This document shows positions 13,073 through 61,840 of a DNA stretch of 64,000 nt, piece after piece. This DNA is from an uncultured Bacteroidales bacterium (GTDB lineage Bacteria; Bacteroidota; Bacteroidia; Bacteroidales; Bacteroidaceae). Below the pieces are notes generated by a model. The model was not told where the DNA came from, ran no database searches, and was given only the letters and a program-made list of their open reading frames with translations. Where the stretch lies: the NCBI GenBank assembly GCA_902779845.1, contig CACZCZ010000008.1:1-64000 (forward strand), read 5' to 3'. The stretch's first letter is position 1, and every line of letters starts with the position of its first letter. A program made the position numbers and the translations under genes.

Positions 13073-13238
13073 CAAGCCGATTATTATCAGGGAGTCGTTT
13101 AAACGGCTCACAATCTGCGTGTTAATAGCTTTTCTCATTGGCCTGGGAGAGCGGTTAGTGAATCGCAGAAACCTCTGAACGGCCATCACCGATGGTCAAA
13201 ACGACAACATTAGTAGTAAAAAATTATTTCAACGAAGA

Positions 13239-44075: not shown

Positions 44076-45494
44076 ATGGACAAAAAGTTAATGAGAGAAC
44101 TCGAGAGCCTGAATGTAGGTGCGCACACCCACATTCTGGGCTATGACACGCAAGCCGGCAAGGTCGGTCTTGTTGCCGTGTCAGAAATCAGTGGTAATAT
44201 CCCTTGGTTCGGCCGCAAGTGGGCCAAGGCGAACTCTTCTCCCGTCGGTTCTCCGGTGGGCGACTTCGACCTCGGTCAGGTGCTGGCCAAGCAGCTGGGG
44301 CTCGGAGGCTATCTGGTGACCAACGACCACCAGCGTCAGAAACTGTCACCTACGAGCCACAACTTCTTGGAGAATGGTGCTGCAGCTGACTTGACGGGTG
44401 CCGCCGGTCACTACCAGTGGGGCTGGAATGTTCCCATGTATCTCCAGGTGTACGAAGACAGCACCTACCTGTACGAGACCATTTCCCTGGGCGGCCCGAG
44501 AAAGGGCTTCTGGAACTACTACATCCCCGTCGGTTCGCGCTCGTGTGCGGGCTATGCTGCAATGGATCGCACGAACACGAAGCTGGTGAGCTATGTCAAC
44601 GAGGGCACGCAGTACCGAGGTGGAAACAACGACTCCAGTTTGGACGCTGCCTATAACTCGCAGCTGTGTAAGCCGGTTACCAATCTTGATATCAGTGCGT
44701 TTCGCACGGCGGCGCGCAAGAACGGGACGCTGTGGTTCGCTAATGAACGTGTCATGCAGTACGTCACGGCCGCGCTGAAGCGTATCATATTCGGCAACCG
44801 GAACATTCAGGCGGCTTTCAACGGTACGCTGGATGCCAACGGCCTGCGACAGGGCGGAACTGGAATGGGTATTGACTCTCCTGCGAGCTGGGATGGTCAT
44901 TTCGCTTATTATCCGTACATCCGTCTTGACGTAGGTATTGATAGCGGCGATCTGACGGGACTCCTCAGCACGGAGATAACAGAAGCTGGAGTCCAGAGGA
45001 CTATCGGCAATATACCTTCGTTCTATGGTCTGAAGAATGACTATAAGTATCTGACATGTATGAGCGAAAACATGCTGCTGCAGGACAATGCTGATAAATC
45101 ACAGTCGCTATTCGTCGCAGACATAATCGACGGCAGCAACATGAATCTTAACAGCGTCGCAGGCTTGCGTCAGGTGGCAAAAGGTCCCGTCGCCTCGTCT
45201 GCTGGATGGCAATACCCAAAGAACTGGGTGCTGAAAGACCTGGCGTTCTTCCCGGGCGAGGAGCTGGGCGGAAGCGAGAGCACCTATTTCTGCGACGGAT
45301 ATTATAATCCTGCATCCACTAGCGGTTTGCGTGGTGCCCTCTTGCTTGGCGATGCGAGCGGCGCCGACTCTGCGGGCTCGTTGTACCTCGCTGGTAACAC
45401 TGCGGTCTCGTATGCCTTTGCTTACCGGGGCGCGTTCCTCTGCGAATGGGCAGAGGCGTTCACCACGCAACCATTCTGGGCCGTGGAAGCCTGA
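44076..45494 (+). CDS. variable tail protein, DGR target
   Basis: Encodes 472 residues. The last 50 or so (LRGALLLGDASGADSAGSLYL...RGAFLCEW) match, residue by residue, the template repeat downstream, with variation confined to the 12 codons between 422 and 456 that correspond to AAY or AAA codons in the template. The end resembles the C-type-lectin-like/FGE fold that carries diversified sites in DGR proteins. It is the last fibre gene, so it is probably the receptor-binding tip. The first part (HTHILGYDTQAGKVGLVAVSEI) is a conserved attachment region. Confidence 0.85.
   Translation: MDKKLMRELESLNVGAHTHILGYDTQAGKVGLVAVSEISGNIPWFGRKWAKANSSPVGSPVGDFDLGQVLAKQLGLGGYLVTNDHQRQKLSPTSHNFLENGAAADLTGAAGHYQWGWNVPMYLQVYEDSTYLYETISLGGPRKGFWNYYIPVGSRSCAGYAAMDRTNTKLVSYVNEGTQYRGGNNDSSLDAAYNSQLCKPVTNLDISAFRTAARKNGTLWFANERVMQYVTAALKRIIFGNRNIQAAFNGTLDANGLRQGGTGMGIDSPASWDGHFAYYPYIRLDVGIDSGDLTGLLSTEITEAGVQRTIGNIPSFYGLKNDYKYLTCMSENMLLQDNADKSQSLFVADIIDGSNMNLNSVAGLRQVAKGPVASSAGWQYPKNWVLKDLAFFPGEELGGSESTYFCDGYYNPASTSGLRGALLLGDASGADSAGSLYLAGNTAVSYAFAYRGAFLCEWAEAFTTQPFWAVEA
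45322..45443 (+). repeat. variable repeat (VR)
   Basis: Aligns without gaps to 45715-45836 (offset 393). Of 122 positions 19 differ; 18 are at adenines of the template and one is at a G. This is the hallmark of DGR mutagenic retrohoming. Confidence 0.92.
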
Positions 45495-45501
45495 GCAAAC
45501 G

Positions 45502-45584
45502 GCGGGGGCGTTGTAAGCGCGGAGCGCAAAGCACACCGGCGCGAAGCGCCCCCGCCCGCAGGGCGGCCAATGCCGCGAAGCGGC
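45502..45584 (+). other. GAA-loop hairpins downstream of VR
   Basis: GCGGGGGCG (45502-45510) pairs with 45547-45555. Within and after it are GGCGC-GAA-GCGCC (45538-45550), CCGCCC-GCA-GGGCGG (45552-45566) and GCCGC-GAA-GCGGC (45572-45584). In the Bordetella phage DGR a hairpin after VR promotes homing; these occupy the same place. The last one plus GATTTT may also terminate the fibre transcript. Confidence 0.6.
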
Positions 45585-45644
45585 CGATTTTAAATCGCAT
45601 CGTGGAAAAATTATTAAAATTGCAATAAAATTGCGCTCTTTGAC

Positions 45645-45674
45645 TTGTTGTAAAAGAATAAATGTGTAACTTTG
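45645..45674 (+). promoter_or_regulatory. promoter of template repeat and reverse transcriptase
   Basis: TTG (45645-45647), 19-base spacer, TAACTTTG (45667-45674). Predicted start near 45680, 35 bases before the template repeat. Confidence 0.7.
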
Positions 45675-45679
45675 CACCC

Positions 45680-46029
45680 GCTTTCCGTTACGAAAGCTGG
45701 TAGAACTCCCAAGCGCGGTTTGCGTGGTGCCAAATTGCTTGGCAATGCGAACAACGCCGACAATGCGGGCTCGTTGTACCTCAATGGTAACAATGCGGTC
45801 TCGAATGCCAATGCGAACCGGGGCGCGTTCCTCAACAAGACGAAATCTTTTTTAAGGGAGTGAGCCAGACCCAAAGGTCAAAAATAGCTGAGATGACAGC
45901 GAGCCTCGTAGCCCTGAAGGGCGAGCGGCATACCTGTCTGGACGTCTTTGCAGACAGCCGCCAAGCACCTTTAGATCCCGCCAAGACCCCGCCAAGACCC
46001 CTTTATCTTACCCACTAAGAACCCGTCTC
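45680..46029 (+). ncRNA. DGR template RNA region
   Basis: Contains the template repeat and the leader before the reverse transcriptase. The template RNA of a DGR is transcribed from such a region; its spacer here (45864-46029) has CCGCCAAGACCCCGCC-type repeats. Confidence 0.6.
45715..45836 (+). repeat. template repeat (TR)
   Basis: Contains 27 adenines, mostly in AAY codons relative to the target frame (11 Asn and one Lys), which is the arrangement that diversifies residues without making stop codons. 18 of the 27 differ in the VR. Confidence 0.92.
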
Positions 46030-46065
46030 ATGCGCAGGATTTGCGACAGGCAGGAGAATGAGTCG

Positions 46066-47274
46066 ATGGATAATGCCCACAAGGCTTTCGACAACTACTC
46101 CGACCAGAAGCACTCCCGTGACTACGTGCAGGCCTTCGAGGCAGATCTTGAAGAGAACCTGCGGGCGATTGTGCAGCAGATAGCCGAAGAGTCATGGCAG
46201 CCCGGTGGATACACCGAGAAAGTCATCTTCGAGCGCAAGCAGCGCAAGCTGGCCAAGGCTCCCATCGAGGACCACGTGCTGGAGAGTGCCACTATATTGC
46301 CCTACGAGAAAGCCATCTATGATTATTCTACTTGGCGGGCACCAGCCGTGAAGCCCGGACTGGGCACACACGGCCTGTTCCGTCATCTCCGGAATGAGCT
46401 CTATGCGTGGTCCCAGGAGGAGATGGCCTACTATGTGGCCATCGACGCACACCACTACTTTCCACTGATGGATCATGCCATCCTGAAGGATGCCCTTGCC
46501 CGACTTGTAAAGCCGGGCAAACTGCTCACATTCTTCTTCAAGGTGGTGGACAGCTATCCACAGGGCACGCCGCTGGGCATCAAGGTGGCGCAGCTCTTCG
46601 GGCAAATATACCTCGCTCGCTTTGACAGACTGGCTATGCGATTCTTCGACATCGGGAAGGATCCTGAGAAGCTGGCCTATTGGACGAACCGGTACGTCAC
46701 GGATCGCATCTGCACCGCGAGGACAAAGGCTGACTACGATGACTTGTGCCGCGGCCCTGCATTCCTGGCAGGGAAGTTCCAGCGCTATGTGCGGCGCGGT
46801 CTGCCCTTCTACCTCCGCTTCGTCGATAACATCATCTTCCGGCACGCTGACAAGACAGTCTTGCACATCGTGCTCGAGCTGACCATCATGCACCTGGCAC
46901 GTGACTGGCATGTGACTGTCAACAAGGACTACAACGTGAGGCCGTGCTGGACAGGAATCCGACTGTGCGGCTACGTCTTCTATCACGACCATGTGGCCGC
47001 AGGGAAACGCAATAAGAAAGAGCTGGCCAGGCACGTGAGGAAGCTGCAGAAGAAGGGCTTCGATGAGGAACAAATCCGAATTCGCCTGTCCTCGAGGTTT
47101 GGGTATATCAAACATGCAAACAGTACACATTTATTCAAGACTCTAGGTATGGAAAAGACACTTGGAAAAATCATCAAGAACCGCCGCGTGAGGCCTCCGT
47201 TCCCCGGAATGACCGGCAACCAGAAAGTGAAATTCTCCTCAATCGTTAACGAATGTAAAACGGGGGGGGGGTAA
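46066..47274 (+). CDS. DGR reverse transcriptase
   Basis: Starting at ATG 46066 (after AGGAG) gives 402 residues; an in-frame start at 46030 is possible. Motif A is VAIDAHHYF with Asp127. The region QGTPLGIKVAQLFGQIYL is the DGR/retron-type motif 4 (usually SQ; here AQ). Motif C reads RFVDNIIF: Asp254 then Asn255, where YxDD is expected. The enzyme copies the template RNA with adenine-specific errors. The gene ends in ten G and a stop; no Avd gene is seen between template and RT. Confidence 0.88.
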   Translation: MDNAHKAFDNYSDQKHSRDYVQAFEADLEENLRAIVQQIAEESWQPGGYTEKVIFERKQRKLAKAPIEDHVLESATILPYEKAIYDYSTWRAPAVKPGLGTHGLFRHLRNELYAWSQEEMAYYVAIDAHHYFPLMDHAILKDALARLVKPGKLLTFFFKVVDSYPQGTPLGIKVAQLFGQIYLARFDRLAMRFFDIGKDPEKLAYWTNRYVTDRICTARTKADYDDLCRGPAFLAGKFQRYVRRGLPFYLRFVDNIIFRHADKTVLHIVLELTIMHLARDWHVTVNKDYNVRPCWTGIRLCGYVFYHDHVAAGKRNKKELARHVRKLQKKGFDEEQIRIRLSSRFGYIKHANSTHLFKTLGMEKTLGKIIKNRRVRPPFPGMTGNQKVKFSSIVNECKTGGG

Positions 47275-52628: not shown

Positions 52629-52661
52629 ATCCCGAAATCTTTTGGAGGTTTCGGGATTTTT
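52629..52661 (+). terminator. terminator of LRR gene
   Basis: ATCCCGAAA (52629-52637) pairs with TTTCGGGAT (52649-52657), then T-run. Its loop contains the TTTG of the next promoter. Confidence 0.8.
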
Positions 52662-52673
52662 GTCTTACCTTTG
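52641..52673 (+). promoter_or_regulatory. promoter of noncoding RNA B
   Basis: TTTG (52641-52644), 21-base spacer, TACCTTTG (52666-52673). The expected start is about 52679-52680, the first base of the 12-base repeat that opens the structured region. Confidence 0.75.
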
Positions 52674-52678
52674 CTCCC

Positions 52679-53296
52679 GCTAAACACATATGGCGCGAGT
52701 CATAGGGGCGACGATGACGCCCGAAATCACATCGATACCGGGCATTATTTATGCTCTTACATAACGGGACTCCCAAGTAGTCTCATCTCGCCAATAGCGG
52801 CGGCCACCCAGTATAGAATTTAGTCCCCCGTGACGAAGTCTGTATGTGTTTAGCGACAGGGAAGGCTGCCGCTTTCTCTGTCTATAGCCGGAGATGCGTT
52901 TGGCCGCGAGGCAAACGAGAAATTGGAATAACCGACAGGCCAAGAGGGCCTACGGGAAAATGCCCTGGACATCTCCGGCCCACATTGGAGAGAAGCCCCT
53001 ACCCGCGAGGATGGGGAGAATGAGAAAATCCTTCCGCGAGGGAGAACGCCTTGAGAACCTGCCACTTCTCTCCAAATCCCTACGCAGGGGGAGATGCCGC
53101 CACCCGTGAGGGCGCGGTGGACATAGTACTTCTACGCACATGACGGCGTAGCATATCTGGAACCCGGAACGTCTCTCCCTGCTTGGATGAAGGTCAAGTC
53201 CTTCAGGCCGGAAGGTCTAGTCCTTATGGCCGAAAGGACAGGTCCCTATAACCGACGGCACAGGGCCGATTCCCTGTAACAGCTAAACACATACAG
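52679..53296 (+). ncRNA. candidate large structured noncoding RNA B
   Basis: About 618 bases, no plausible gene. Long-range helices: CTGTATGTGTTTAGC (52840-52854) with 53282-53296, continued by ACAGGGA (52856-52862) with TCCCTGT (53271-53277), 22 pairs; GCCGGAGATG (52887-52896) with 52970-52979, 10 pairs; TTGGAGAGAAG (52985-52995) with 53065-53075, 11 pairs. Local hairpins with GNRA-type loops occur at 52897-52917 (GCGA), near 53000 and 53035 (GCGA) and near 53105 (GTGA). The 5' end GCTAAACACATA repeats at 53282-53293, so two strands compete for one partner. The outer helix ends five bases before the next ATG. Reminiscent of GOLLD/ROOL-type phage RNAs, but not recognised as either. Confidence 0.65.
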
Positions 53297-53300
53297 CAAC

Positions 53301-53618
53301 ATGAGACAATTAACTTTGAACTTCGACGGCTATGCATCCGGGACGGGTGCTGCCGCTCGCGCCGTAGCAGCGCGGGACGAGAGGACTGAGAATCAACGGG
53401 TGGCCGCTAAGTCCGGCCATACTCTGGCAGGGGCCTTCGCATGTGCCGCAGCCAGCGCCATGGCAGTGATGCCGGCGCTGCTGCTGCCTGCGGGTTTCGT
53501 GCTGGCCACAGGCGCCGACACGATCCCGCAGGCCTTGGCCTCGCTGGCGTGCTTCGCCCTCGGGGCATGGCCGCTGGGAGTGTTCGACATGAAGAGGAAA
53601 GGAGGTGAGTCATGCTGA
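53301..53618 (+). CDS. small phage membrane protein, unknown
   Basis: Encodes 105 residues with an Ala-rich start and two hydrophobic segments (GAFACAAASAMAVMPALLLPAGFVLA; ALASLACFALGAWPLGVF). The start codon lies right after the outer helix of noncoding RNA B, so translation may depend on its folding. Overlaps the next gene by 7 bases. Confidence 0.6.
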   Translation: MRQLTLNFDGYASGTGAAARAVAARDERTENQRVAAKSGHTLAGAFACAAASAMAVMPALLLPAGFVLATGADTIPQALASLACFALGAWPLGVFDMKRKGGESC

Positions 53619-53866
53619 AAGAACTGGAATTCCTGAAGGCACAGGTGCAACTGGAACACAAGCTGGTGGCCGCCTACGAGGAAGAGACTCGCGAGGCTGA
53701 CATCCTGGAACTCGAGCGCCAGCAGATTATGAAGCGCCTGGCCGAGAACTCGGCGAAGTTCGACCAGCTGAAGCTGAAGAAAGAGGGCCACCGCCGCGAC
53801 ATCCGCGAACGCATGGCCGAGCTGCAGGCGGAGTACGAAGGTAAGGAGAAAGGAGGTGCAGCATGA
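53612..53866 (+). CDS. small coiled-coil phage protein
   Basis: Encodes 84 residues that are almost entirely charged helix (EEETREADILELERQQIMKRLAEN). Possibly a tail assembly chaperone or regulator, given the tape measure gene downstream. An AAAGGAGG sits just before the ATG of the next gene. Confidence 0.6.
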   Translation: MLKELEFLKAQVQLEHKLVAAYEEETREADILELERQQIMKRLAENSAKFDQLKLKKEGHRRDIRERMAELQAEYEGKEKGGAA

Positions 53867-54057
53867 CAAAGACCGAGCAGAAGATCCTGAGCAGCTACGT
53901 GCAGAACCAGGACAGCGGACGCTTCACCTCGCAGGACATCTGCGACAACCTGCGCGAGACAGCCGCACTCTCACCCGCCGTAGTCACCGAATACATGCTC
54001 TCCCACGGATGGCAGCTGCAGCGGGATGACGACAGACTGGTGTGGGTGAAGAAATGA
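53863..54057 (+). CDS. small winged-helix-like phage protein
   Basis: Encodes 64 residues (ILSSYVQNQDSGRFTSQDICDNL ... VTEYMLSHGWQLQRDDDRLVWVKK); helices followed by a hairpin resemble a winged helix. ATGA overlap with the previous gene. Not recognised. Confidence 0.5.
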   Translation: MTKTEQKILSSYVQNQDSGRFTSQDICDNLRETAALSPAVVTEYMLSHGWQLQRDDDRLVWVKK

Positions 54058-54088: not shown

Positions 54089-54119
54089 TTTCGCGATTCA
54101 CTGAGAAGCAGTATATTTG
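54089..54119 (+). promoter_or_regulatory. promoter upstream of 24-residue gene
   Basis: TTTC (54089-54092), 19-base spacer, TATATTTG (54112-54119). Confidence 0.65.
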
Positions 54120-54142
54120 CAACGAATTAGAAGGAAAAGAAT

Positions 54143-54217
54143 ATGTTCATCCTGATCATCTGGTTACTAGTCATCTGGTTCGCAGTGCTGTTCATCGGCG
54201 CGTGCAGGCAGAAATAG
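54143..54217 (+). CDS. 24-residue membrane microprotein
   Basis: MFILIIWLLVIWFAVLF followed by IGACRQK: one membrane helix with a short basic end. It has its own promoter 24 bases upstream and GAAAAGAAT before the ATG. Could be a tail-insertion or lysis accessory peptide; too short to classify. Confidence 0.4.
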   Translation: MFILIIWLLVIWFAVLFIGACRQK

Positions 54218-54223
54218 CAGTAT

Positions 54224-54254
54224 TTTCGTACGCGAGATAATGGCGGTATATTTG
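54224..54254 (+). promoter_or_regulatory. promoter of tape measure gene
   Basis: TTTC (54224-54227), 19-base spacer, TATATTTG (54247-54254), 30 bases before the ATG. The GCGGTATATTTGCA context resembles the promoter at 54112. Confidence 0.7.
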
Positions 54255-54283
54255 CAGAAAGAAACAAATATACCGCTTTTATT

Positions 54284-58615: not shown

Positions 58616-60477
58616 TAAGATGTACCATCAACGGTCAGGAGGCCATACCCACCCTGAAGAACAACATAAAGATAACGTCGGAGAACCCATTGTTGAAGGA
58701 CAAGGACTCCTGGACAATGGAAGTAATATTTCCCATGAGTATCGAGGAGAACGCCAGGATCTTTGGCAACTGCCACCGGCTCGAGGTCTCGAGGAGGGTG
58801 GCACAATATGACGACTGTGCAATCATCGCAGGCAACCAGATGGTCATCCGGGGAGTAGGGATTGTTGTGGGCGTCAATCAGAGCGAGGTGAAGCTGCAGA
58901 TCAAGAGCGGCATTCAGGGCATCGCCTATCGTTCAGAGTTCGAGAAGATATACATCGACCGCCTCACATACAACACCAAATTCCCATCATCTTCTCTGTG
59001 CAATTATGATAATGAAGCCGGTGATGAGTACATCTATATCGACAAATTTGCACAGTATCAGAAGGACTGTCAGGACCGCTATATCTACGCCTGCATCTAC
59101 GACACAAAGAACAGTCGCGTCATGAACGAGCCGGAGGTGAGATGGGAGCCCGGAGAGACTCCAGAAGGGGATGCCTTCTATGTTGTCCTGAAGAATCGCG
59201 CACAGTGTCCGAACGTCAACTACGTGCTGCGAACTGTTTTCAGCAGAATGGGCTACAGAATGAAAAACTCGCTGGCGGATATTGTGGGTGAGCTGGCTAA
59301 TGCATACGTCTGCAATACGAGAAAAGGCGGACTCATACCCCACGCGCTACCACATTGGACTGTGAAGCGCTTCCTTGATGAAATGCGTAAGATGTACAGC
59401 ATAGTATTCATCTTCGATGAAGAGAAGAAAACGGTGGAAATCATTAAGGAAGACCCTCTGGTACGCGGTATTGTGGAATACGAATGCCAGGACGAATTCA
59501 CTACGGACTACAACGAACAGGGATTGTCATACGTCGGGGCCTCCAATGTGGAATATAATCTGGCAGACTGCGAATACAGATACTGCAGCGACGATATTTC
59601 AGAAGATGCACTGCAGCATTTCGAGAGACGCGAATATGCTTCATGGGGTGATATGCAGTACGCTTGGGAGCAGATGAACGAGGAAACGAAAATGACCACA
59701 ATCTTCGAGTGCCCATACGGGACCTACTACACACAGAAATGGGAGGATGAAAATGAGGCCGTACATTTCGGCCTCCGGAAGGCCAAGTTCCAGCACATCA
59801 CACGCATCGAGGGCGGGGACAACGCCGTTGCACTGAACATCGCGCCCGCGGCCATCGGACCTGTCACAGTAAACCTTCCTGCGACATATCCGTTAGGAAG
59901 AGGGAACCTCGCACCTCTAGTACATAGAGGCGAACAGACAGAAGAATACGAGGTGCAGTTGTATCTCCCCTGTATAGAAGGCAAGGAGGACGGGAGCGAC
60001 GGCGAGTATCAGACTGTACAAGCTGTCGTCGAAGGCGGTGGAGATATCAGCGAAGATGAGGATGAGCGCATGGAGGTGGTATTTCTCGGGAGTGGAGATA
60101 AAGGGGTGTCGCTGAACCTAGGAGGAAAGATTTACTTCCTTAACACAAGACCCGAAAGAGGGTATACCTTTGCAACGTCGTTCACGATGGTGATGTGTTC
60201 CACAGATCCGGATGCCAACCCCGACACCAGCTGCAACCGTTCCTTCGCGTTGACGAAGACGGCTGCAGCTGTGTTCATAGGCCAGCTCCACCAGAAAGAG
60301 AAGGTCATCGAGAACCAGGAACCGACCGTCATCAAGTTCTTGACAAATGAAAGAACGGACCCGACCAAGATTCACCAGTTTCGCAACAAACGCTATATAT
60401 GCGAGAAGATAGAGACGGTGATTGACGAAAACGGGATACGTGAAGAGAAAACCGGCTATTTCTACGAGATGATCTAA
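58612..60477 (+). CDS. tail tip / baseplate protein
   Basis: Encodes 621 residues starting MIRCTINGQEAIPTLKNNIKITSENPLL, a start seen in tail-associated proteins following tape measure genes of Bacteroidales phages. Middle part alpha/beta (WTVKRFLDEMRKMYSIVFIFDEEKKTVEIIKED). Overlaps tape measure by ATGA and ends next to the convergent integrase, overlapping it by 4 bases. Probably distal tail/hub; family not certain. Confidence 0.65.
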   Translation: MIRCTINGQEAIPTLKNNIKITSENPLLKDKDSWTMEVIFPMSIEENARIFGNCHRLEVSRRVAQYDDCAIIAGNQMVIRGVGIVVGVNQSEVKLQIKSGIQGIAYRSEFEKIYIDRLTYNTKFPSSSLCNYDNEAGDEYIYIDKFAQYQKDCQDRYIYACIYDTKNSRVMNEPEVRWEPGETPEGDAFYVVLKNRAQCPNVNYVLRTVFSRMGYRMKNSLADIVGELANAYVCNTRKGGLIPHALPHWTVKRFLDEMRKMYSIVFIFDEEKKTVEIIKEDPLVRGIVEYECQDEFTTDYNEQGLSYVGASNVEYNLADCEYRYCSDDISEDALQHFERREYASWGDMQYAWEQMNEETKMTTIFECPYGTYYTQKWEDENEAVHFGLRKAKFQHITRIEGGDNAVALNIAPAAIGPVTVNLPATYPLGRGNLAPLVHRGEQTEEYEVQLYLPCIEGKEDGSDGEYQTVQAVVEGGGDISEDEDERMEVVFLGSGDKGVSLNLGGKIYFLNTRPERGYTFATSFTMVMCSTDPDANPDTSCNRSFALTKTAAAVFIGQLHQKEKVIENQEPTVIKFLTNERTDPTKIHQFRNKRYICEKIETVIDENGIREEKTGYFYEMI

Positions 60478-61649
60478 AGGTAACCCTCGAAGTCAGCGAG
60501 GACATCATAGACCTTCATGCCGTGCCCCTTCAGGTACATGTTCGTGGTCTGGATGCTACTGTGGCGCGCCTGCTTCTGGGCAACTTCCACACCCACGGAG
60601 TTCGAGATGTCACGCAGGCCGCTGTCCTTCAAACTGTAGAACATGTAGTGCTTCGGGAAGCCCAGCAGCTCGCGGACCTTGTTGAACTCATACGTGAAGT
60701 GGCGCCCGTCCTGACGGTTCTCGCTGGGCAGGAAACCGCGGCCGAAGAGATAGCTGTTATTTGGGTGGTCGAAGACATGGAGATCGATCATCAACTTGAT
60801 GACCTTGTTGGGCAACTTGATTTTTCCGTCGCGACGGTTCTTGCTGATCTGACTGCTGACAAACACGCTGCCCTCCTCGACGCTGATATCCTTCAGCTGG
60901 ATGAAGCTGAGCTCCGTCGGACGGATGGCCGTGAAGTACTCCATCATGACAGCCAAAAGGAACGGCCTGTTATTCTCCTGAAGGAATTCACTCAAACGCC
61001 TCAGGTCTTCAGGTTCCAATGGCTGGCGGAACTTCTCATGCTCCGGCAGCTGATGGATGTACTGGATGGGGTTCTCATTCAGAAAACGCTTTTCCACCAT
61101 CCACGAACAAAGCGTCGAGGACCATGTGCGGTAGTTATTCCTGGTCTTGGCCGAGAGGTCGCGGTCGATGAGCAGGTAGTCGAAGAAATCCACCCAGAAA
61201 GCCTGGTCCATCTGGTAGCACATACGGACAGGCTGCAGCTGCTCATCGATGTACTCCAGCAGCACTCGCAACCGCGACGAATAGTCGTAGAAAGTCTTGT
61301 GCTTCAACACGCCCTTATTATATATATTAATAATGTACGCGCGATAGCGCTCCAGGACATCCTTCACCGCACAGTCGCTTCGGGACGTGTTCGTCGGAGC
61401 CCACACGTTCCAGCCGCGGGAGACCTGATTGTAGATGTTGGCGATGATGCGGTTGGCGGCGAAGTCACGTTCGCGTCCGGGGCGGAAACGGTCGAGCATA
61501 TACTTCTTCCGCTTCAACCGACCTGTCATCGGATCTGTCTGGGAAAACCAAATGTAGGAATGCTTGCCGTCATGCCGGCGAGGGGGAATAAAATCAACGA
61601 TCCTGCTTTTTAATATAGAGAAATCGTCGCGCTCACTTTTAGGAAACAT
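60474..61649 (-). CDS. int: tyrosine-recombinase integrase
   Basis: ATG at 61649 gives 391 residues (MFPKSERDDFSILKSRI); an upstream TTG start at 61679 is less likely. N-terminal arm-binding and SAM-like domains (about 90-190), then the catalytic domain: AIRPTELSFIQLKDI (Arg I), YSLKDSGLRDI (box II, where the first histidine is Lys and the Arg is retained), ARHSSIQTTNMYLKG (His and Tyr nucleophile). It recombines the 15-bp core in tRNA-fMet. It sits beside attR with candidate arm sites between. Confidence 0.93.
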   Translation of the reverse strand: MFPKSERDDFSILKSRIVDFIPPRRHDGKHSYIWFSQTDPMTGRLKRKKYMLDRFRPGRERDFAANRIIANIYNQVSRGWNVWAPTNTSRSDCAVKDVLERYRAYIINIYNKGVLKHKTFYDYSSRLRVLLEYIDEQLQPVRMCYQMDQAFWVDFFDYLLIDRDLSAKTRNNYRTWSSTLCSWMVEKRFLNENPIQYIHQLPEHEKFRQPLEPEDLRRLSEFLQENNRPFLLAVMMEYFTAIRPTELSFIQLKDISVEEGSVFVSSQISKNRRDGKIKLPNKVIKLMIDLHVFDHPNNSYLFGRGFLPSENRQDGRHFTYEFNKVRELLGFPKHYMFYSLKDSGLRDISNSVGVEVAQKQARHSSIQTTNMYLKGHGMKVYDVLADFEGYL

Positions 61650-61691
61650 TTTTTTTACGTTGTTTGCCGAAGCCCCCAACGTAGATGAAAC

Positions 61692-61766: not shown

Positions 61767-61781
61767 GTTGCGGAGGCTCGA
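61767..61781 (+). other. attR core
   Basis: GTTGCGGAGGCTCGA, identical to attL, overlapping the 3' end of the tRNA-fMet gene on the minus strand. Confidence 0.9.
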
Positions 61782-61840
61782 TTCGAACGAGCGACCTCCA
61801 GGTTATGAGCCTGGCGAGCTGCCAACTGCTCCACTCCGCG
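61768..61840 (-). tRNA. tRNA-fMet (CAT anticodon)
   Basis: Folds as a full cloverleaf: acceptor CGCGGAG/CTCCGCA with an unpaired C1-A72, the initiator hallmark, D arm GAGC/GCTC, anticodon loop CTCATAA in stem CCAGG/CCTGG, T arm GCTCG/CGAGC. 73 bases, CCA not encoded. The anticodon stem has two rather than three terminal G-C pairs. The prophage is inserted at its 3' end, leaving the gene intact. Confidence 0.9.

Follow-up and report, generated by a model that had tools for sequence, protein, structure and literature searches.

One of the closest described systems is the CI RNA of phage P4, in which an inner segment is complementary both to seqA upstream and to seqC downstream in its own leader (PMC4825925). 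The c4 RNA of phages P1 and P7 (RF01695 in Rfam, and listed in Table 1 of PMC2864571) combines a conserved scaffold with a variable target-pairing loop that sets heteroimmunity, and the sequence it targets in an antirepressor operon lies close to a ribosome-binding site (PMC12197685, PMC5320573). IsrK of Gifsy-1, a short prophage RNA, doubles as the beginning of an mRNA that encodes an antirepressor; it differs from the RNA reported here in activating translation in trans, and the consulted part of its source describes no triplet of the kind set out below (PMC4825925). GOLLD and ROOL are large prophage RNAs of unknown function (PMC12286853).

The hallmark of the RNA found in the window, i.e., the whole 64,000-nucleotide stretch of Bacteroidales DNA analyzed, is a triplet: a code, A, where the transcript is predicted to begin; B, which is the reverse complement of A; and A', a further copy that lies at the start codon of the gene that follows. 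The order A-B-A' is that of seqA-CI-seqC, a likeness of architecture. Unlike P4 CI, the RNA belongs to another phylum, is built on a D:D' pseudoknot scaffold, and has A' at a start codon instead of a termination site; moreover, its operon does not consist of replication genes. With c4, it shares a conserved scaffold and a variable pairing segment, and antirepressor-type genes stand behind some relatives, but the fold differs, the code also occurs at the transcript start, and RF01695 had no match in the window or in seven divergent loci. Unlike GOLLD and ROOL, it is not near a tRNA island, its conserved part is much smaller, and it is an operon leader.

Locus, fold, and parts of the RNA

The RNA stretch occupies positions 52679-53296 and ends 4 nt short of the ATG at 53301 of a 105-amino acid gene, p1. 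A sequence-only reading had described about 618 bases without a plausible gene, and the plus-strand ORFs inside the stretch are indeed at most 71 amino acids long. The TTTG-N21-TACCTTTG promoter-like layout from which it predicted the start of transcription, which we take to be the Bacteroidetes-type consensus, was confirmed in the sequence. The parts are as follows.

52641..52673, + strand: promoter; TTTG at 52641-52644, 21 nt, then TACCTTTG at 52666-52673; same layout directly 5' of A in relatives
52666..52885, + strand: conserved core according to covariance model R1, promoter box included (176 bits, E 1.2e-57)
52679..52693, + strand: A, first code copy, GCTAAACACATA plus a wobble extension, where transcription is predicted to begin; forms 15 pairs with B if G-U is included
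52741..52755, + strand: 5'-domain hairpin GGCAT/ATGCT; 99.5% of cells paired in 37 cores
52796..52805, + strand: D, 5' strand of the pseudoknot; 10 pairs with D' (52864-52873)
52840..52854, + strand: B, complement of the code; pairs with A and, perfectly, with A'
52855..52882, + strand: C stem, 52855-52863 with 52874-52882, its loop being D' (52864-52873); 100% of cells paired in 37 cores
52886..53269, + strand: variable, hairpin-bearing insert; the 10- and 11-pair helices noticed in the sequence-only reading lie here
53183..53251, + strand: tandem hairpin units like host intergenic repeats; 12 further matches in its own genome
53270..53277, + strand: alternative partner for the 5' arm of C; lengthens B:A' to 22 pairs and is separated from A' by four unpaired bases
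53282..53296, + strand: A', second code copy, perfect complement of B, 4 nt 5' of the start codon; position conserved in relatives
53301..53618, + strand: p1, first gene, 105 amino acids; membrane-protein-like by eye; E 1.4e-19 with profile A4, which was built with p1
53612..54057, + strand: two more small operon genes, of 84 and 64 amino acids, in overlapping ORFs; similar ones lie 3' of p1 in relatives, by eye

The predicted fold energy of 52679-53296 was -266.9 kcal/mol. Twenty dinucleotide shuffles averaged -211.0 (sd 9.0), which gives a z of -6.19, and none of them was as stable. The 22-pair helix described earlier is real, consisting of 15 perfect pairs (52840-52854 with 53282-53296) and a second run (52855-52862 with 53270-53277); it ends four bases short of the start codon. 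Overlooked at that time was that 12 nt of the downstream arm (GCTAAACACATA) recur at the 5' end of the RNA, at 52679-52690, and because of this repeat the strand at 52840-52854 has two competing partners. As B can bind only one of them, the A:B and B:A' pairings are mutually exclusive. Pseudoknot D:D' and stem C flank B. Among relatives, conservation is high in the pseudoknot and in the 5' domain. Host promoters (L010-L015), some of which drive tRNA genes and one a sigma-factor-like gene, give transcripts that begin CCCGCTAA(AC), like A; B could in principle meet these host 5' ends.

Outside the core of ~215 nt, the elaborate remainder of ~400 nt is folded yet poorly conserved. The 398-nt stretch from the search pattern (below) to A' folds with a z of -5.4 against mononucleotide shuffles, and the distance from the end of the pattern to A' ranges from 16 to 433 nt in relatives. 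The 10-pair helix (52887-52896 with 52970-52979) and the 11-pair helix (52985-52995 with 53065-53075) are both perfect in sequence and count as predicted helices, as they lie in the insert, which matches those of the other members examined only in scraps of 20-39 nt. Intergenic tandem repeats of ~22 nt, of the AAGGACTTGACCTTATNGCC type, were seen elsewhere in the genome (e.g., L002-L008) and partly resemble the 3' end of the RNA at 53183-53251.

The RNA occurs once in its own genome, in a prophage, between the gene for an LRR_5 protein and the tape-measure gene (PhageMin_Tail). An integrase gene (60474-61679) lies further along the prophage and faces an adjoining tRNA-Met gene (61767-61840); this is likely the prophage attachment site. 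The window also contains a diversity-generating retroelement at 44076-47274, with a tail-type target protein (phrog_5302) followed by a reverse transcriptase (phrog_1423, E 1.6e-46), and the ORF at 45672-45863 resembles a template repeat by eye. At 54108-54282 there is a promoter-like GTATTTTT, ~18 nt, TATATTTGCA, and then a palindrome. The GTATTTTT-TATATTTGCA layout recurs 5' of the tape-measure gene in many relatives and is a candidate phage late promoter. A scan against Rfam (4227 families), a check suggested with the earlier reading, found no GOLLD, ROOL, or other Rfam match to the window RNA; it and the seven divergent loci had no match, or only one below the gathering score. Elsewhere in the window, 13092-13164 is an L13-Bacteroidia ribosomal protein leader (RF03127).

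Relatives and covariation of the helices

A blastn search with the window RNA in 139 same-genus genomes returned two homologues (L051 and L054), from which the search motif GTTTAGCGACRGGGN{1,5}GGCNGCCG was taken. This matched 33 viral-contig stretches and 14 genome stretches; one of the latter, in Hymenobacter (L126), was a chance match in coding sequence and was left out of all counts. A counterpart of A is present in 40 of 41 unique pattern-found RNAs, and both A and A' are visible in 31 of the 33 viral loci, the sequence of L088 ending before A and that of L108 before A'. Two additional motifs matched 13 and 14 viral-contig stretches. A route through the tape-measure neighborhood reached 34 viral loci, where blastn with the RNA gave one clear match only, to the promoter/terminator stretch of L017. 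The window RNA had no match in phage and plasmid records; as a query, the related L138 matched one phage record with 13% coverage and no plasmid. The RNA family ranges over Bacteroidales genomes and viral contigs, and the named genome records that carry it are of Prevotella, including Prevotella sp. tf2-5, and other Bacteroidales MAGs. The open-access literature yielded no description of a Bacteroides prophage RNA of such a kind (subscription papers fell outside this search), and the family is apparently undescribed; possibly, it is an RNA-based phage immunity system.

Covariance model R1, which contains A:B but not A', was used with a threshold of E ≤ 0.001 and matched 5 of 139 genomes of the genus, 24 of 399 of the family, and 12 of 393 of the order, the window's own genome being counted each time. 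By inspection, the matches in G090 and G230 (L152 and L153) and in G750 and G607 (L169 and L170) were judged to be due to chance. Because R1 lacks A', this element provides an independent check: an exact downstream complement of the B region of at least 12 nt was found in 18 of 37 R1 loci versus 1 of 740 shuffled targets, where the 37 exclude L152 and L153, which are tRNA promoters, and still include the likely chance matches L169 and L170. The GCTAAAC part of the triplet is altered in distant members (GCCAAA, GTCAAA, GGTTCAAAG, and others), whereas the triplet itself is kept.

Alignment A1 comprises 37 distinct cores, after omission of L088, which ends before A, of the divergent L113, L124, and L125, and of eight duplicates. 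Over A:B, D:D', the C stem, and three small hairpins, 96.6% of the 1618 cells are paired, and 13 pairs have changes on both sides; homologues that lose the pairings, which would have spoken against a structured RNA, were thus looked for and the pairings were found to hold. The covariation score was 0.234, versus 0.125 (sd 0.005) in 500 shuffles and 0.024-0.068 with the partners slid. For D:D' alone, 99.2% of cells are paired and two pairs changed on both sides, with G-C/U-A and A-U/U-A exchanges; more variants were seen by eye in further loci, e.g., GGTTCCG with CGGAACC. RNAalifold recovered A:B unaided and, with A held unpaired, D:D'. B:A' lies outside the aligned core and was judged instead by matching each B to its own A'. 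Conserved, without an Rfam match, and with covarying long-range pairs, this is a real structured phage-borne RNA, and to that extent the sequence-only reading is supported.

The code, the genes behind it, and stacked units

The code, i.e., the segment of A, B, and A' beyond GCTAAAC, occurred as 24 distinct 7-mers in 39 RNAs; counts involving A' are without L108, which is cut off, and L116, whose A' is not of the GCTAAAC form. Within an RNA, B matched its own A' by Watson-Crick pairing at all seven code positions in 36 of the 39 and at six in the other three, and the mean duplex energy was -20.8 kcal/mol for own partners versus -11.3 for partners of a different code. Turnover is visible even between close relatives: where scaffold identity is at least 94%, the code differs in 18 of 24 pairs (4/7 at 97% or more, 14/17 at 94-97%). 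L096 and L110 have 99.4% scaffold identity and inserts that are 97% identical, and three of six code sites are changed in each of A, B, and A'; their flanks are unrelated except for a 53-nt stretch at the promoter. Similarly, L136 (G249) and L138 (G293) share 97-100% identical DNA for 1 kb from the start of p1, whereas their codes and 5' domains differ, a pattern that would fit modular exchange of the RNA. A ParA-like partition gene lies ~750 nt 3' of the RNA in L136, after p1 and a short ORF, judged by sequence; some carriers may therefore be plasmid-like elements.

The rule is broken by L116, in which A equals A' in code and B is of another code; recombination, decay of the copy, or chimeric assembly would account for this. 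Because G249 holds two units with an identical code at two sites (L136 and L155), equal codes can coexist. Code differences within a genome had been considered as proof of incompatibility, but this was dropped, as nearly all random pairs of RNAs differ (560/595). Nor does A' always displace A thermodynamically, an idea not supported by the duplex strengths: B:A' is the stronger in 23 of 38 RNAs and A:B in 15.

In the core group, the first gene behind the RNA encodes a short protein, membrane-like by eye, and other small genes follow. The window's own operon is flanked by a lysis-like region and by the tape-measure gene, and Pfam and PHROG searches recognized no repressor or antirepressor in it; p1 itself had no PHROG match and no Pfam match at the curated cut-off. 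The controlled operons of P4 and P1 begin with the small harmful proteins kil and icd, to which p1 may, by analogy, be a parallel. Profile A4 matched in 49 of 201 genomes, with nine strong matches (E < 1e-18). Eight of these nine are in RNA units found with R1, and the ninth (L202, in G094) also has the A-B-A' arrangement. Among the 22 weaker loci (L204-L225), a clear arrangement was seen solely in L220 (G028), and most weak matches are therefore chance membrane proteins or p1 without the RNA; the A-B-A' finder applied to the A4 loci was crude, and overlooked the RNA at L196, L197, L198, and L201.

Antirepressor-type first genes, not present in the window's own phage, were found in 4 of 11 order-level loci (own excluded). 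They encode Bro-N proteins in L163 (1.5e-23), L166 (4.5e-26), and L168 (2.6e-20), and a Rha protein (Phage_pRha) in L165 (3.9e-27). L163 additionally encodes a KilA-N domain (4.4e-12) in its second gene. In these four loci the triplet was recognized by eye, with bulges or G-U pairs, and the exact B/A' match is just 6-10 nt. In L165 the start codon overlaps the beginning of A'.

Stacked units occur in L134 (three), L143 (two, the same array being present in viral locus L179), L174 (three), and L175 (two by R1; an additional ORF that starts in the same way hints at a third). By eye, the upstream units contain just ~24-59 codons that resemble the beginning of p1, after which the next unit begins; unit 2 of L134 starts differently. 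Only the last unit of each of the four arrays has an intact p1. Every array unit found with R1 has a B:A' match of at least 9 nt, and the codes are different, though chance could in part explain the shortest of these matches, and in L174 the A copy of unit 3 is uncertain. L185 deviates, with the intact gene in its first unit and an odd-looking ORF after the second, and two units of different code occur on a single viral contig (L186 and L187).

Possible modes of action

With the architecture, the covariation, the mutual exclusion of the pairings, and the hypervariability of the code established, we infer that this is a code-bearing leader or antisense RNA that controls a small phage operon through B:A', also acting in trans, and we put the probability of this reading at roughly 0.55. 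Pairing of B with A' would hide the initiation region and turn the operon off, whereas A:B pairing would hold B away from A' and relieve the block. Translation in Bacteroidetes reportedly depends on a start region free of structure; B:A' at the start codon should block it. A search of the window between core and gene turned up no terminator-like hairpin, so termination of the P4 type is not supported here. The B-bearing RNA of a resident element would then act in trans on transcripts whose code matches its own, and the code would consequently set an immunity or incompatibility group, as in P4 CI and P1/P7 c4. Trans action makes the most sense of the arrays because A-B-A' is kept in units with truncated genes; it may also be that the upstream units are simply recent. 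Against this reading are the rule-breaking B of L116, the two identical-code units of G249, the lack of a fixed order of duplex energies, and, in the window's own phage, the position of the operon and its lack of a recognizable repressor or antirepressor. A wider proposal, which we regard as tentative, is a Bacteroidales-wide RNA code of self and non-self, in which phages and other elements would carry antisense modules (promoter, A, scaffold, B, and A') that are interchangeable and whose hypervariable code defines immunity groups, and arrays of foreign codes would make an element immune to several types of rival.

Possible, though rather doubtful, is a switch acting only in cis: A:B would form first during transcription, A' would compete later, and the 5' domain, as an aptamer or protein site, would decide whether the operon is translated. 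The conservation of both exclusive pairings, the position of A' at the start codon, and the highly conserved 5' domain and pseudoknot all agree with this, but a three-way pairing used in this manner would be expected to change little, whereas the code varies more than any other part of the RNA, and the triplet is retained in array units whose gene is truncated.

In the hok family, metastable competing pairings are mutually exclusive and show coupled covariation, in the mRNA of a small membrane protein on a mobile element. The RNA could likewise be a toxin mRNA, in which p1 would be a putative toxic membrane protein and the alternating pairings would keep the message metastable and silent until processed. 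A small, membrane-like first gene and competing metastable pairings fit such an mRNA; unlike hok/sok, however, different downstream genes occur in relatives, four of which have a Bro-N or Rha protein as their first gene, and we consider this explanation improbable.

More improbable still is a feature of the DNA itself, whether sites of recombination or inversion, targets duplicated by a mobile element, or inverted repeats homogenized by template switching. The concerted change of three copies does require selection or a homogenizing process, and modules of near-identical core and insert do occur between unrelated flanks. Inversion is opposed by the fact that all pattern-found members with both ends readable are in one orientation, and target duplication by L136 and L138, which have the same downstream gene and different A'; in addition, D:D' and C covary like RNA helices. 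Finally, a giant ornate RNA of the GOLLD or ROOL kind, a possibility raised in the sequence-only reading, is suggested by size, fold stability, and prophage location but is very unlikely, as there is no Rfam match, the only conserved unit is a core of ~215 nt that heads an operon, and the ornate domain proves to be an insert whose length varies among relatives.

The preferred reading, a code-bearing leader or antisense RNA, would, if the RNA does act in trans, mean that an RNA-based immunity code exists in gut and rumen phages, and it would be of use in forecasting mutual exclusion among prophages. Action in cis alone would still make this a new RNA switch of clear architecture. In either case, an RNA family without an Rfam match combines triple covariation with hypervariable complementarity.
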